Origin: an uncultured bacterium | Lineage (GTDB): Bacteria; Verrucomicrobiota; Kiritimatiellia; CAIKKV01; CAIYGI01 | Reading direction: 5' to 3' | Length of the DNA: 50,792 bases | Assembly (NCBI GenBank): GCA_903925685.1 | Contig: CAIYGI010000037.1 | Coordinates: forward strand, 1 to 50,792 | In this document: positions 332 through 50,113 of the stretch, piece after piece | How positions within the stretch are numbered: the first letter of the stretch is position 1 | Layout of the letters: the number at the start of each line of letters is the position of its first letter | Translations under genes and position numbers: made by a program | Notes under the pieces: generated by a model | Databases searched by the model: none | The model's input: the letters and a program-made list of their open reading frames with translations, nothing else | Told to the model about the DNA's origin: nothing

Positions 332-488
332 GAATCTTCCGCTTTTTCGGTAATCCGTGGTTAACTCGATTACATCGAATTTCATGATGCGTTCGCCCTG
401 TACCATCCACAACCGGCGCTTGCCATGCGCGGCGCTTTGACGGAGAATGCCGCCCACAACGCCGCGCGCGTACGGCAAGGAAGTTCCT

Positions 489-1589
489 ATGACACATCGA
501 ATACTGCTTGCTGTTCTGGTTGTTGTTTTGAGTCTGCCCATCATCGGGGCCAGGGCGGATGAGGTTTCCTCCAACGCCGTGCCGGAGCGTGTCGCGGCCT
601 GCATGTTGCGCGACGCCTATTTGTTGTCCTCCAATGCCGAAGGGGCGCTGGGCGCCGGGCAGTCGTCCGAAGCCCTGACTGGCTTTACCAACGCCCTGGC
701 GCAGTTTCAGCGGATTCAAAAGCTGTACCCCGGCTGGCAGAGCGGGCTGGTCAATCACCGCGTGTCCGAGATTGATGACGTGGTGCGCCGCCTGCGCGCG
801 GGCGCGCCGGGCGAAGAGGTGGCCAGCGACGATCGCATACGGCGCCTGATACGCGACATGGAGCAGGTCCGCATCCTGCTGGCCTTGTCCGGCGAACCGC
901 GCGCCGCCACCGACGCCGAAGAAACCTCCATCCTGCGCGAACGGATCCGGCGGATGGAGGAGGAGAATGCGGCGCTGCAGCGGGCCAATCGGGCGCTGGT
1001 GGACGAAACGGCGCGCCTGGACGCGCGCCTTGCCAAACGCGAGAAGCGCAGCGAGCCCCGCCCGCAGGCCGGACTGGTGGCCAGCGTTTTGCGCCGCGAA
1101 GCCCAGCAATTGGAACAGCAACAACAGCCGGCCACCGCCATCGCGCTGCTGGCCGAGGCCTGCCTGCTGATGCCCGACAGCACCGAAATGACCCTGGCCT
1201 TCGGCCTGACGCAGATGCGCGCCGGCAAGTTTGCCGAGGCCCGCGACACGCTGCTTGCGCTGGCCGACCGCACGCGCACCAACGCCACGGTCTACACCGC
1301 GCTCGGATCGGCCTATATGGGCAACAACGACTTGAGCAGCGCCCGCGACGCCTTCGAAAAAGCCGTCTCGCTCAACCCCGAGATGGGCGACGCGCATTAC
1401 AACCTGGCCATGCTCTACATGGAGCGCGATCCCCCCGACACCGCCAACGCCGAGCGGGAATATATGCGGGCGATTCAGGCCGGCGCGGCCCCCGATCCGG
1501 CCTTGAGCAGCGCGATCCGCGATCTTTCGATCATCAAGGCCTTGAAGCAGAAGAAGAAGCCGGCGAGCGGTAATTCGGTGAAGCGGTGA
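489..1589 (+). CDS. Exported TPR-repeat protein with central coiled coil
   Basis: A protein of about 366 residues. I chose the ATG at 489 because AAGGAAG lies 6-7 nt upstream and it begins a clean Sec signal peptide (MTHRILLAVLVVVLSLP, ending near ARA). Residues about 140-180 form a charged coiled coil (repeated RRMEEENAALQ-type heptads). From about 200 to 340 there are TPR helices with typical patterns such as TALGSAYMGNNDLSSARDAF and HYNLAMLYMERD. It probably scaffolds a periplasmic or envelope complex; the partner is unknown. The C-terminus (NSVKR-stop) is encoded by the first octamers of the array at 1568-1615, so the native end may have been replaced. Confidence 0.75.
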   Translation: MTHRILLAVLVVVLSLPIIGARADEVSSNAVPERVAACMLRDAYLLSSNAEGALGAGQSSEALTGFTNALAQFQRIQKLYPGWQSGLVNHRVSEIDDVVRRLRAGAPGEEVASDDRIRRLIRDMEQVRILLALSGEPRAATDAEETSILRERIRRMEEENAALQRANRALVDETARLDARLAKREKRSEPRPQAGLVASVLRREAQQLEQQQQPATAIALLAEACLLMPDSTEMTLAFGLTQMRAGKFAEARDTLLALADRTRTNATVYTALGSAYMGNNDLSSARDAFEKAVSLNPEMGDAHYNLAMLYMERDPPDTANAEREYMRAIQAGAAPDPALSSAIRDLSIIKALKQKKKPASGNSVKR

Positions 1590-1615
1590 GTCGGTGAGTC
1601 GGTGAGGCGGTTAGG
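1568..1615. repeat. Left arm of octamer element around four-helix-bundle gene 1
   Basis: Six consecutive 8-bp units of consensus CGGTGAGT: CGGTAATT, CGGTGAAG, CGGTGAGT twice, CGGTGAGG, CGGTTAGG. They lie in inverted orientation to the units at 2005-2056. Three features are encoded in or touch this arm: the last residues and TGA of the plus-strand TPR gene (1589) and the TAA of the minus-strand four-helix-bundle gene (1611-1613). Confidence 0.9.
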
Positions 1616-1994
1616 CCTCGGGAATGTCGGTGAATTGGCGCGCTTTCATGAGCATTGCTCCCAGCATGCGGCCTACGGATTCAACATCGCGAGATAGGGA
1701 GGCATGAGCCTCTTTCGACAGATATTCGCAGTCTCTTGCATAGTCGAGCCAAGTGTCAGTTTCTGCATTCTCACCATCGCAATCCGTCAGTTTCGTCACA
1801 AAGTGGGCAGCGTACAGTCTTTTCGCCCATGCTTCGCGGAGATTGGCGCATACCGATCGTGAGCTGCGTCTGATCTGATCGGTCAAAGCATACCGCTCTT
1901 CGCGGGGCCAATCCTTGGATTGACGAAATATTTCCATCGAGAGCGCATACGCAAACTTGTAAACATCCAGATCCTTAGCCGACTTCGCCTTCAT
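1611..1994 (-). CDS. Four-helix-bundle protein (S23 / 23S rRNA-intervening-sequence family)
   Basis: 127 residues, typical length for the S23/TIGR02436 family. Visible hallmarks: the N-terminal LDVYKFAYALSMEIF helix, the signature DWPREERYALTDQIRRSSRS followed by VCANLREAWAKR, and the subgroup motif FVTKLTDCDGENAETDTWLDYA. Members were first found in insertions within 23S rRNA of Leptospira and Coxiella; related folds (Avd of diversity-generating retroelements) bind nucleic acid. The biochemical role of stand-alone copies is not established. The gene is bracketed by inverted octamer arrays (1568-1615, 2005-2056), the ATG lies 11 bp from the right arm, and its TAA is in the left arm. The ribosome binding site is weak (GGGGCGG). 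Gene plus arms looks like one element inserted between two convergent genes. Confidence 0.9.
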   Translation of the reverse strand: MKAKSAKDLDVYKFAYALSMEIFRQSKDWPREERYALTDQIRRSSRSVCANLREAWAKRLYAAHFVTKLTDCDGENAETDTWLDYARDCEYLSKEAHASLSRDVESVGRMLGAMLMKARQFTDIPEA

Positions 1995-2004
1995 GTCCGC
2001 CCCG

Positions 2005-2056
2005 CTTCACCGCTTCACCGTTTCACCGATTCACCGACTCACCGACTCACCGATTC
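2005..2056. repeat. Right arm of octamer element around four-helix-bundle gene 1
   Basis: Six full octamers (CTTCACCG twice, TTTCACCG, ATTCACCG, ACTCACCG twice) plus a decayed seventh. The two ACTCACCG units are exact reverse complements of the CGGTGAGT units at 1584-1599, giving a perfect 16-bp pairing core. Variation is confined mainly to the first two positions of each unit. The stop codon and last residues (ESVSR) of the downstream-facing CsgG-like gene are encoded in the outer units. Confidence 0.9.
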
Positions 2057-2968
2057 ACTCATCTGCAGCCACTGTCCCCTGGCGAATCCCTCGCCGTGCA
2101 CCACATCGGCCAGCGCCATGCGCCGTTCCGCCTTGACGATCCGCACGGTTCCGATCCGCCGGCCAGGCAAAAAACCCAGCACATCGCCGGTTTCGGGATC
2201 CGTCACCGGCCGCGCTGGCTCCATGACTTCGAAAGTGGCGCCAACGCGCACGCCGGTCTCCGTGCCGCCGTTCAGGATCAGCCGCTTCCCGGTCACTTCC
2301 GCCACCATCAGATGGCGCTGGTCCACCGGCACCTCGCGCAAAACGCGCGCCACGCCCTCGCGGATGGCCTCCCGGGTGGCTGTGCCAAGCGGCGTGCGGA
2401 AATAGGCGTCGCCGCCAAAGCGCACGCCCTTGTATTCGGTTTCGGCGTAGGCGTAACCAGCATGCGCCCGCCCTGCGCAATTGACGGAGCCGATGATGCG
2501 TCCGCTCTCGATATCCACCAGCGTCAGCGTCAGCGTCACGCGCGCCGTGTAGCCGCGCCCGATGAAGGCGATCCAGTTCAGGGCAAACCAGAAACTGCCG
2601 CCGCTTTCCTGCGAGAAGTCCGTGATCACGCCGCGAATCAGATATTGGGCGTTCTTCAAGCGGCCGACGGTCAGTTTGCGTTCCGGGCGGAACCAGGAGC
2701 TTTGCTGTTGTTTGAGTTCGCCGATCACGCTATCGAAATGCTGGCGTTCGACAACCTCCAAGTGCGGCACGCGCACGAGTTCGCTCACCAGCACGTCGGC
2801 CATTCCATCGCCCAGCCGCCACTGCCCGTCGTAACCGGACCGGTTCTCGAAGGAACTGACGGCGAACAGGGGCGCCACCGTATCGTCCGGCCAATTCGGC
2901 AGGCCCGGCCCATAGATGCCGCACCCCGCCGCAATCAGCCCCGCGATGATCGTCACCCAAACGCGCAT
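2039..2968 (-). CDS. CsgG/LpoB-like outer-membrane lipoprotein
   Basis: 309 residues with a lipoprotein signal: MRVWVTIIAGLIAAGC, lipobox IAAGC, lipid-attachment Cys at 16. Residues about 35-220 resemble the CsgG family (penicillin-binding-protein activator / curli secretion fold): APLFAVSSFENRSG at the start, ADVLVSELVRVPHLEVVER, then YLIRGVITDFS and a strand-rich region ending LVDIESGRIIGSV. The C-terminal ~80 residues form an extra beta-rich module (LILNGGTETGVRVGATFEV). The ribosome binding site GGAGG precedes the ATG. Likely an envelope lipoprotein; the exact role (secretion pore versus PBP activator) cannot be decided. The C-terminal ESVSR is derived from the adjacent octamer array. Confidence 0.75.
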   Translation of the reverse strand: MRVWVTIIAGLIAAGCGIYGPGLPNWPDDTVAPLFAVSSFENRSGYDGQWRLGDGMADVLVSELVRVPHLEVVERQHFDSVIGELKQQQSSWFRPERKLTVGRLKNAQYLIRGVITDFSQESGGSFWFALNWIAFIGRGYTARVTLTLTLVDIESGRIIGSVNCAGRAHAGYAYAETEYKGVRFGGDAYFRTPLGTATREAIREGVARVLREVPVDQRHLMVAEVTGKRLILNGGTETGVRVGATFEVMEPARPVTDPETGDVLGFLPGRRIGTVRIVKAERRMALADVVHGEGFARGQWLQMSESVSR

Positions 2969-2993: not shown

Positions 2994-3154
2994 GTGAGTG
3001 GTGAGTAGTGAGTAGTGAGTGGTGAGTTGTGAGTGGTGAGTTGTGAGTGGTGAGTTGTGAGTTGTTAAAAGCAAAAGATGAAAACGTTTACCTTACAAAG
3101 ACTCAGCAACCTATTCACGACTCACGATTCACCACTCACCACTCACTACTCAAT
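2994..3154. repeat. Empty inverted 7-mer element
   Basis: Left arm 2994-3063: ten exact-length 7-bp units GTGAGTN, where only the last base varies (G, A or T). Right arm 3113-3154: six 7-bp units of type ACTCACN/ATTCACN, the inverted complement. The 49-nt loop has no ORF. It lies between the CsgG-like gene (downstream) and the RRM gene (upstream) on the minus strand; the RRM gene's TGA (3150-3152) falls in the innermost-to-gene unit. It resembles the element at 1568-2056 but with unit length 7, more units and no gene. Confidence 0.9.
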
Positions 3155-12357: not shown

Positions 12358-12479
12358 CAACCGCCGATTTCATTTGTCGCTTGTCGAAACCCCGCCCCGA
12401 TCTAACTTGCGCCACTCTAATCGGGTTGTCGGTTGCGTGTGTTGCCAAAGCCGCGCCCGCTACAAGGCGGCGACGCCTC

Positions 12480-12567
12480 TATAAGTGAATGTCCAAAGTC
12501 CATATACGACCCCACTCGCCCACTATAAGTGAATGTCCAAAGTCCATATACGACCCCACTCGCCCAC
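12480..12567. repeat. Perfect 44-bp tandem duplication
   Basis: Two identical, head-to-tail 44-bp units (12480-12523 and 12524-12567) starting TATAAGTGAATGTCCAAAG. Perfect identity implies a recent duplication. No ORF. Confidence 0.95.
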
Positions 12568-41219: not shown

Positions 41220-42514
41220 ACGGCACAAACGCCGCATTCACGCTTGAAAACGCGCGTCTGTTGGATCCCGCGACGGGACGCGATGGGCCGGGCTGTTTGT
41301 CCATAGCCGATGGACATATCGCCAACTCAGCTTCCATGGGGCAGGCGCGCCGGATCGATGCCCGCGGTTGGACCGTGGCGCCAGGATTCGTAGACTTGCA
41401 TGTGCATTTTCGGGAGCCGGGCGGGGAAGCCGCCGAAACGACGGCCAGCGGCGCGCGCGCCGCGGCGCGCGGCGGATTCACCACCGTTCTGACCATGCCC
41501 AACACCCAGCCGCCGATCGACACCCCCGACCGTCTGCGAACCGCACTGGCTCGACACGCGGAGGTGTCCGCTACCGCGCGCGTGCTGGCCTCGGCCTGCG
41601 TCACCCGTGAACGCGCTGGCGTTGGACTGGCCGATCTCGCGGCCCTCGCGGCGGCCGGCGCCAGCGCCTTTACCGACGATGGCGCCGCCGTGAACGACGC
41701 GCAACTGATGCGCGCCGCGCTCGCCGCCTGCGCCCGTCTGAACCGGCCGCTCTTGCAGCACGCGCTCGATCCCGCCACCCGCGGCGTAGCCCACGACGGC
41801 GCCTTTGCCGCGCGCCATGGTTTCCCCGGCATCCCCGACACGGCGGAAACAGGCCTGATCGCCCGCGACCTGGAACTGGCCGCCGAAACCGGCGGCGCCC
41901 TGCATATACAGCACCTCTCGGCGGCGGGCAGCCTGCCGCTGCTCACGGCCGCCCGCCGCGCCGGCGTCCGCGTGACGGCCGAAGCCACGCCGCACCATCT
42001 CTTCTTTTGCGACGACGACATTCCGGACACCGACACCAATTACAAGATGTCCCCTCCGCTGCGCACGGCAGCCGACCGCGCGGCCCTGCGGCTGGCGGTC
42101 TCCACCGGCGAAATCGGCGTGCTGGCCACCGATCATGCGCCGCATACGGCGGAGCGCAAGGCGCTGGGCTGGATGGATGCGCCATTCGGCGTACTGGGAC
42201 TGGAGAGCGCCGTCGGCGCCACCTACCGCGCCCTCGTCATCGAACAGCGCATGGCGGCGCTCGACTGGGTGGCGCGCTGGACCAGCGGCCCCGCCAGCGT
42301 GCTCGGCCTGCCTGCACCCAGCCTGGAGATCGGCGCCACGGCCGATCTCGTGGTGCTGGACCTGGACGCCGAATGGACCATGACCGCGTCCGATCTTGCA
42401 TCGCAATCGCGCAATTGTCCCTTCCTGGGACAACGCCTGAAGGGCCGCGTCGTAGCCACGCTGCTGGGAGGGCGATGCACCTGGGCGTCGCAGCAGTGGC
42501 TGGAACGATTTTGA
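41216..42514 (+). CDS. pyrC: Dihydroorotase
   Basis: 432 residues, class I dihydroorotase size. It cyclises carbamoyl-aspartate in pyrimidine synthesis. Zinc/active-site motifs: DLHVHFREPGGE (HxH), TMPNTQPPIDTP, LQHALDP (usual HxxD/E), HIQHLSAAG and ATDHAPHT with the catalytic Asp; TPHHLFF is also typical. All ligands look present, so it should be active rather than the PyrX type. Its TGA lies at the first bases of the octamer element at 42513. Confidence 0.92.
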   Translation: MNGTNAAFTLENARLLDPATGRDGPGCLSIADGHIANSASMGQARRIDARGWTVAPGFVDLHVHFREPGGEAAETTASGARAAARGGFTTVLTMPNTQPPIDTPDRLRTALARHAEVSATARVLASACVTRERAGVGLADLAALAAAGASAFTDDGAAVNDAQLMRAALAACARLNRPLLQHALDPATRGVAHDGAFAARHGFPGIPDTAETGLIARDLELAAETGGALHIQHLSAAGSLPLLTAARRAGVRVTAEATPHHLFFCDDDIPDTDTNYKMSPPLRTAADRAALRLAVSTGEIGVLATDHAPHTAERKALGWMDAPFGVLGLESAVGATYRALVIEQRMAALDWVARWTSGPASVLGLPAPSLEIGATADLVVLDLDAEWTMTASDLASQSRNCPFLGQRLKGRVVATLLGGRCTWASQQWLERF

Positions 42515-42598
42515 CGCAAAGGCGCTAAGACGCAAAGAAAACGAGGCGATTTGAGTTAACTTAAAAATGTATTCTTCGCGCCTTGGCGTCTCTGCGTC
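42513..42598. repeat. Empty inverted octamer element (GACGCAAA type), copy 2
   Basis: Left arm 42513-42537 (GACGCAAA, GGCGCTAA, GACGCAAA, G) and right arm 42574-42598, whose complement matches at 20 of 25 positions. The 36-nt loop again contains TTGAGTTAA, as in copy 1 (247-331). It lies at the 3' end of pyrC, sharing the TGA, and before the convergent SIMPL pseudogene. Confidence 0.85.
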
Positions 42599-42623
42599 AA
42601 TGACTTGATTCAGGTTGTAGGCG

Positions 42624-49633: not shown

Positions 49634-49713
49634 ACATTAGACTGTTAGGCTGTTAGACTGTTAGACTGTTAGACTGTTAGGCTGTTAGGCTGTTAGGCTG
49701 TTAGGCTGTTAGG
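49634..49713. repeat. Left arm of octamer element around four-helix-bundle gene 2
   Basis: Nine exact 8-bp units CTGTTAGG/CTGTTAGA (49642-49713) plus one decayed unit (ACATTAGA) at the outer edge. Only the eighth base varies (three consecutive A-type units, the rest G-type). The last unit supplies the TAA of the four-helix-bundle gene (49709-49711). The inverted partner is at 50082-50105. Confidence 0.95.
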
Positions 49714-50065
49714 AGTTACGGATGGATCGCATCAAGGCGCTCAGGACCTTACCGGCCTCCACCATTTTTATATCACACTCAGAGACGTCTGATGCAGCCG
49801 AATATCCCAAGCGCCCGGCCAGATTGAGTTGGTAATGCAGTTCCCTCAATGAAGCAAAGGCCACTTCAAGAAATCGGAGATATTCAGCCTGGGTCTCACG
49901 CGCACAACCTTCAACAATGTTCGATGGAACCGAAACTGCCGCTCTTCGCATCTGAGATGTCAGCCCATACATTTCCTCTCTGGGAAACCGTCGTGTTGCC
50001 CGATAAATCAATACTGCCACCTCGTCTGCCAGTTCAAACGCCCGAAGCTTCGTATGATCTCGCAT
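49709..50065 (-). CDS. Four-helix-bundle protein (S23 family), second copy
   Basis: 118 residues. Hallmarks: KLRAFELADEVAVLIYRATR, FPREEMYGLTSQMRRAAVSV, then PSNIVEGCARET, FLEVAFASLRELHYQLNLAG. This is the common S23 subgroup, distinct from the first copy (which has the LTDCDGENAET motif); only the FPREE.YGLT.Q.RR signature is strongly shared. AGGAGG lies 6 nt before the ATG and touches the right octamer arm. Its stop is in the left arm. Inserted between ssb and its downstream gene on the same strand. Confidence 0.92.
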   Translation of the reverse strand: MRDHTKLRAFELADEVAVLIYRATRRFPREEMYGLTSQMRRAAVSVPSNIVEGCARETQAEYLRFLEVAFASLRELHYQLNLAGRLGYSAASDVSECDIKMVEAGKVLSALMRSIRNS

Positions 50066-50081
50066 TCTTTCCTCCTAAAAG

Positions 50082-50113
50082 TCTAACAGCCTAACAGTCT
50101 AACAGCCTATTCT
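50082..50113. repeat. Right arm of octamer element around four-helix-bundle gene 2
   Basis: Three 8-bp units TCTAACAG, CCTAACAG, TCTAACAG (50082-50105) and a decayed fourth unit (CCTATTCT). Inverted complement of the left-arm units. It lies between the ssb stop and the ribosome binding site of the four-helix-bundle gene, so it would be in the 5' leader of that gene and the 3' trailer of ssb. Confidence 0.92.

Follow-up and report, generated by a model that had tools for sequence, protein, structure and literature searches.

S23 genes between inverted arrays of 7- and 8-bp units as a probable widespread mobile element of bacteria

Genes of the S23 family, together with inverted arms built of 7- or 8-bp units, probably form a widespread mobile element, in which the S23 protein would act in trans on hairpins. 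S23 genes are small genes of long-mysterious function, known chiefly from rRNA insertions. The proposed element would consist of a G-rich arm located 5′ of the S23 gene and a complementary, C-rich arm located 3′ of it. The window is the whole stretch of DNA that was analysed, 50,792 nucleotides in length. Its first S23 element (element 1, 1568-2058) and the neighbouring genes are as follows:

447-1589, plus strand: left neighbour, TPR protein, whose stop codon TGA (1587-1589) lies within the 3′ arm of element 1
1568-1616: 3′ arm of element 1, made of six 8-bp units that complement the 5′ arm and holding the S23 stop codon
1611-1994, minus strand: S23 / four-helix-bundle gene of element 1, 127 aa, PF05635 and TIGR02436
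2002-2058: 5′ arm of element 1, seven 8-bp units, preceding the S23 start in the coding-strand direction
2039-2968, minus strand: right neighbour, CsgG-like lipoprotein, whose stop codon (2039-2041) lies within the 5′ arm of element 1

The preliminary description of this DNA reported arrays in exact 8-bp phase that surround an S23 gene and nothing else, and a listing of the units together with the ORF and profile searches confirmed it. The same description counted six octamers on each side, which is correct for the left array (CGGTAATT CGGTGAAG CGGTGAGT CGGTGAGT CGGTGAGG CGGTTAGG in this order), whereas the right array has seven (CCGCTTCA twice, CCGTTTCA, CCGATTCA, CCGACTCA twice and CCGATTCA; CGGTGAGT/CGGTGAAT type when read on the coding strand). 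Positions 1578-1611 and 2025-2058 are 91% complementary over 34 nt, and the arm-to-arm score is 26.5, while just 1.0% of 1,215 segments drawn at random from this genome reach a score of 15 or more. The S23 stop codon lies inside the left array and the ATG is 7 bp away from the right array. The proposed pairing of the transcript ends through the arms is borne out by the predicted fold of the transcript strand, in which the arms are paired (z = -5.7). The neighbouring genes are convergent, and both of their stop codons are the TGA of CGG-TGA inside the arms. The position at a convergent junction is thus true for element 1 but is not general, as S23 elements sit between co-directional genes too, e.g., beside carB. 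An S23 element lies directly upstream of carB in two distant lineages, namely in the window's genome (L009) and in Xanthomonas dyei (L235).

The second S23 element of the window, element 2 (49637-50109), is absent from the preliminary description. Its octamer differs from that of element 1, and its transcript is predicted to fold with the arms paired (z = -4.3):

49637-49713: 3′ arm of element 2, with some 9.6 TTAGGCTG units in inverted orientation to the 5′ arm
49709-50065, minus strand: second S23 gene, 118 aa, of a different subfamily from the S23 of element 1
50074-50109: 5′ arm of element 2, 8-bp units CCTAACAG/TCTAACAG, on the coding strand CTGTTAGG/CTGTTAGA

With a second S23 gene enclosed by arrays in like manner, the finding concerns a class of elements rather than one locus. 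Element 2 adjoins a single-strand binding protein gene.

The family assignment rests on profile searches. The protein of element 1 matches PF05635 with E=1.5e-29 and TIGR02436 with E=7.9e-27, and the scores clear the curated cut-offs of these S23 families (102.8 and 106.4 bits against 33.8, 93.6 and 109 bits against 24). XCC0516, whose structure has been solved (2gsc), is among the homologues of the family. The S23 protein of element 1 also shows a weak bAvd/DivGenRetAVD similarity and shares the four-helix bundle with the Avd proteins of diversity-generating retroelements (DGR). This similarity, together with arms that would pair in the transcript, led to the consideration of a retroelement, in which S23 would be an Avd-like partner of a reverse transcriptase copying the hairpin RNA into DNA. 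Such a route has scarcely any probability. The scores against NF033474 (DGR Avd) are 37.4 and 31.0 bits, below the curated cut-off of 80 bits, and one protein (P0001) is just above the wider Pfam bAvd cut-off (40.4 vs 40 bits). The RVT_1 search gave no match in the window's genome (G000) or in G001, G032, G055, G058, G059, G061, G086 and G092, nine genomes, several of them drafts, which all carry S23 and most of which hold many arrays. Five of these nine are Xanthomonas genomes, out of eight array-bearing ones of that genus in which RVT_1 was sought. As several array-rich genomes gave no RVT_1 match, the elements can apparently do without a reverse transcriptase; the retroelement route, to which the preliminary description had pointed through Avd, was rejected and can be regarded as largely refuted.

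The association between arms and S23 genes extends far beyond the window, whose genome is a 4.12 Mb draft with ten PF05635 hits above the cut-off. Inverted-matching flanks were found at all ten of these genes, with scores of 19-50, while swapped flank pairs have a mean score of 9.9 and a 99th percentile of 20. The weak hits L011-L017, below the family cut-off and mostly without matching arms, were left out of the counts. Each of the ten S23 genes has its own unit or a close variant in its arms, and the units include TCAGAAT, TTAGGCTG, CGGTGAGT, AGGTGCT, GTGAGTG, GGTGGAG and GATGAAC; several S23 types with different units therefore coexist in one genome. A truncated S23 gene (L008, 1486-1731) retains both arms and is a possible step toward gene-free hairpins.

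In the wider set of 153 S23 loci, taken from relatives of the same class and from a scan across bacterial phyla (DNA scan alignment including XCC0516), the flanks match in inverted orientation with a score of at least 15 at 116 (76%), in many phyla, and about a quarter of the loci have weak or absent arms. The same score is reached by 2.9% of swapped flank pairs and, among random 350-bp segments, by 1.0% in the window's own genome (n=1,215) and 3.2% near other loci (n=403); matching the flanks of the 153 loci in direct orientation yields 16%. The comparison with random genes that had been proposed for S23 flanks in relatives thus came out strongly in favor of arms that belong to the S23 gene. 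Of the 116 loci, 98 have arms that fit a period of 7 best and 16 a period of 8; the matched arm has a median of 33 nt, or about 4.5 units, and G outnumbers C in the coding-strand reading of the 5′ arm at 107. Arms are also present at 28 of 35 S23 loci from viral-labelled contigs and at all eight cyanobacterial plasmid loci examined, one of them with short arms. S23 genes with arms were further observed within CRISPR loci, between cmr2 (cas10) and cmr3 in Picosynechococcus (L380, 838-1194) and between cas6 and cas4 in Pseudanabaena (L379, 901-1260). A survey of CRISPR-linked proteins names the 23S rRNA intervening sequence protein (IVP) (PMC10910872), which may reflect insertion rather than function.

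The type of the S23 protein and the unit of its arms go together. Between genomes, the more alike two S23 proteins are, the more alike their arm units tend to be (Mantel r=0.29 for 5-mers, none of 999 permutations as high). After the removal of pairs with similar outer flanks, non-orthologous S23 copies at least 70% identical have a mean unit cosine of 0.53, compared to about 0.05 (0.054) for all pairs, and the cosine of 0.115 for pairs of 55-60% identity is near background. An example is the TCAGAAT-type arms. They occur at unrelated sites around six S23 copies, spread over five genomes, whose proteins are for the most part 77-94% identical. The plasmid S23 proteins of Trichormus, Nostoc and Aulosira are 71-76% identical to those of the TCAGAAT copies, and their arms are of TCAGGAG/TCAGAAT. 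The DNA similarity of non-orthologous copies starts and stops in the arms, and copies at unrelated sites whose similarity stops at the element ends are L001, L028, L162, L159, L157 and L025. Since like proteins share units at unrelated sites and the similarity is bounded by the arms, the arms travel with the S23 gene.

Such pairing bears on the suggestion that S23 inserts into pre-existing inverted arrays as a preferred target, so that the arms belong to the site. The intervening sequences (IVSs) of rRNA are also found at hairpin tips (PMC4990558), and gene-free hairpins would provide sites of this kind. Subfamily and unit are paired at unrelated sites and across phyla, and the carA-carB site has no arrays in species lacking the X. 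dyei element, which makes a target preference very improbable as the explanation of the arms; as the only reading, it is rejected by the protein-unit pairing.

Hairpins of S23 units are not restricted to S23 genes. Two features of the window carry units known from other S23 elements of its genome:

2994-3158: gene-free hairpin, GTGAGTG array at 2994-3065 and CACTCAC array at 3115-3152, with a loop of about 50-70 nt and the unit class of S23 element L006
22864-22922: single heptamer array CCTCCAC, with the unit of S23 element L007 (GGTGGAG)

Gene-free hairpins of another 8-mer, of the GACGCAAA type, are located at 247-331 and 42511-42600 of the window. The stretch 165-401 matches many places in G001, a genome of the same genus, and is thus a high-copy dispersed repeat. 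A perfect tandem duplication of a 44-bp unit is present at 12479-12567.

A survey of 393 kb sampled from the window's genome revealed numerous pairs of inverted arrays that enclose no S23 gene. Their loop is usually 20-130 nt long, and these gene-free hairpins are more numerous than the S23 copies. Arrays of period 7 are the commonest (10.7 per 100 kb, compared to 0-2.5 for periods 5, 6, 8, 9 and 10). When 39 gene-free arrays were compared with the genome's own S23 units, the mean best cosine was 0.60; foreign sets gave 0.24 and none of 500 was as high. Active copying of the arrays, as proposed in the preliminary description, is supported by these S23 units in gene-free hairpins and by the gain or replacement of units at orthologous sites considered below. 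Period-7 arrays number 0 and 0.5 per 100 kb in two relatives that lack S23, and 2.0 in a relative with eight S23 hits. One misfit is G032, which has 18 family hits although a sample of 118 kb showed no clean array of period 7.

It could be supposed that the arrays arise by themselves, through replication slippage and template switching in hairpins, and spread by ectopic recombination, with S23 as a passenger in a loop. Heptamer arrays are known from many bacteria, with no partner named for them (PMC4692102, PMC4679880), and the excess of gene-free hairpins over S23 copies would fit such an origin. This origin is nevertheless quite unlikely, because inverted arrays enclose seven of seven S23 genes versus two other ORFs in the 393 kb, the enclosure recurs in many phyla, and the abundance of arrays tracks the resident S23 type. 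A HAD hydrolase gene (L063, 6597-7345) and a double-zinc-ribbon/phosphoribosyltransferase gene (L049, 13728-14525) were observed inside inverted heptamer arrays, possibly as cargo captured between two hairpins.

The relation between the resident S23 type and array abundance was followed, as a correlation, in Xanthomonas. An earlier report describes 70-75 inverted pairs of GGGAATC arrays per genome, with no assigned partner (PMC4692102). The orthologues of XCC0516 carry GGGAATC arms, and type A S23 has arms of GGGAATC/GGGATTC. A second S23 type, with GGGACCG arms, is present in only three of 35 species genomes: G060 (X. dyei), G075 and G086. The GGGACCG 14-mer GGGACCGGGGACCG was counted 43, 25 and 37 times in these three genomes, against a median of 0 in the other 32; the exceptions among the latter are G089 with 19, G085 with 5 and G061, G078 and G079 with 4 each. 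G089 is a draft in which S23 was not found, through loss or an assembly gap. The GGGAATC 14-mer GGGAATCGGGAATC has a median of 100 in genomes with an intact type A S23 and counts of 12, 15, 41, 0, 22 and 25 in the six without it. The two comparisons, of GGGACCG and GGGAATC, give Mann-Whitney p=4.7e-4 and 1.1e-4 with phylogeny ignored. In G085, the sole S23 has GGGACCC arms, and GGGACCC arrays stand at the compared sites. Another dispersed Xanthomonas repeat (L281, 7264-7442), with dozens of matches per genome, is probably a REP-type family.

Seven X. dyei hairpins (sites A-G) were compared with the orthologous sites of relatives. Site B is a clean gain: a hairpin of about 98 bp is present in G060 and its close relative G092, and none is found in G058, G059, G066, G081 and G087. 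At site D, the hairpin occurs in G060 and G092, with other sequence in G058 and G059, and the hairpin of site F is common to G060 and G092. At sites A, C, E and G, the hairpin boundaries are the same between species and both arms differ in unit, in register, the unit being GGGAATC, GGGATTC, GGGACCC or GGGACCG depending on the species; at site A, the loop is partly alignable. G086 and X. dyei have a common version of the hairpin at sites A and C, so the arms of X. dyei may be explained by recombination import instead of rewriting. Even so, at some point within the genus the two arms must have switched unit jointly. In X. dyei, carA and carB flank the type-B S23 gene; in other species this interval is free of arrays and filled differently. 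As the content differs between species, this is a hotspot, and it offers no clean empty site for the gene-bearing copy; the filled and empty sites compared are thus the gains of gene-free hairpins at B (clean) and D and, for a gene-bearing copy, the content-variable carA-carB site only.

The conserved positions of hairpins also bring in an explanation based on host regulation. The arrays would be regulatory hairpins of the host, such as mRNA 3′ ends and terminators, and S23 would be a TRAP-like RNA-binding regulator; the units would turn over by selection to stay bound, and the spread would be slow and not driven by an element. A hairpin often has the same position in different species but another unit, and the earlier report places 90% of Xanthomonas arrays between the same ORFs (PMC4692102). 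The arm median of about 4.5 units fits one unit per subunit of a pentamer, and the G-rich 5′ arm can supply a Shine-Dalgarno-like sequence. The coexistence of S23 types, the copies at unrelated sites, in distant phyla and on plasmids, and the similarity bounded by the arms speak against regulation as the explanation, which is unlikely while retaining a small, real chance. The same observations amount to the behavior of a mobile element.

For the proposed mobile element, the following mechanism can be considered. Within the hairpin arms, the S23 protein would most likely bind its own unit in the form of single-stranded DNA or RNA, and it would act in trans on every hairpin of that unit. The hairpins would then spread to new intergenic sites, and their arms would be rewritten to the resident unit. 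The element encodes neither a transposase nor a reverse transcriptase, so the cutting and copying of strands must fall to host replication or repair. The S23p of X. campestris is described, in a study citing Lin 2006, as a homopentamer ring of four-helix bundles (PMC4990558); one unit per subunit is an attractive idea in view of the 4.5 units per arm, and the likeness to TRAP-like ring RNA-binding proteins is one of analogy. Recognition of its own arms by the S23 protein is indirectly supported by the protein-unit pairing and the Xanthomonas comparison, and the scattering of the repeats over genomes that carry the gene points to the protein as a driver of their spread or upkeep. From sequence comparison we infer that the protein binds its unit directly and works in trans, and that the host does the copying.

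Several known systems resemble the proposed element. The first are the REPIN/RAYT systems, which the element is proposed to match in its way of working: one protein gene is tied to a repeat, gene-free inverted doublets form intergenic hairpins and the repeat type follows the resident protein (PMC3116915). Dispersed gene-free inverted doublets and a repeat type following the protein type were found for S23 as well. In contrast, S23 is the only gene in the element, and its four-helix bundle has no known catalytic residue and is unrelated to the Y1 tyrosine transposase. The S23 arms are tandem 7-8-bp arrays instead of single palindromes, and two elements of one genome can have entirely different units.

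The second are the 23S rRNA IVSs, such as those of Coxiella and Leptospira, which encode the same protein family, are similar in length at about 430 nt and possess complementary ends (PMC4990558). In Coxiella, the IVS carries two to three tandem GACAGAT heptamers just upstream of the S23 ORF, variable between strains, and its S23p is apparently not expressed (PMC4990558). Element 1 has the complementary ends but lies between the TPR and CsgG-like genes rather than in a 23S rRNA helix. Unlike IVSs, the elements described here are free-standing between protein genes and numerous; both of their arms hold longer arrays, and gene-free copies are dispersed as well. Given the tandem GACAGAT before the Coxiella ORF, the 23S rRNA IVSs look like copies of S23 elements that landed in rRNA.

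The third are the intergenic repeats with a 7-bp period: GGGAATC in Xanthomonas, where pairs are inverted (PMC4692102), GGGGA(T/C)T in Nostoc, the STRR of Calothrix and TAACTGA in Beggiatoaceae. The available portions of these sources name no S23-like protein partner, whereas the present analysis identifies the Xanthomonas unit as that of the arms around its S23 gene. The P6b stem of the Nostoc/Calothrix trnL intron is likewise built of heptamers (Class I TDNGATT, Class II NNTGAGT) and has undergone repeated whole-unit replacement in place (PMC4476775). It differs in belonging to a group I intron with no S23 gene inside, and its link to S23 is only a suggestion by analogy. In the open-licence literature, no paper was found that joins S23 and tandem or heptamer repeats as one system, save the Coxiella IVS paper, which notes heptamers ahead of the S23 ORF (PMC4990558).

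A broader reading is held tentatively, with somewhat less than even confidence: S23 may found a new kind of mobile system, in which a non-catalytic ring protein reads a 7-8-bp unit, spreads hairpins and rewrites both arms with host enzymes only, and of which the rRNA IVSs and the heptamers of Xanthomonas, perhaps also of cyanobacteria, would be manifestations. The finding joins three puzzles kept apart in the literature found, namely the function of the S23/IVP protein, the origin of the 23S IVSs and the excess of heptamer repeats in bacterial genomes, and each of them gains a testable partner, as the S23 type predicts the unit. It also calls for caution, since S23 genes beside CRISPR or other systems may be insertions and not parts of these systems. 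Should arm rewriting truly proceed with neither a transposase nor a reverse transcriptase, it would represent a new route of copying.
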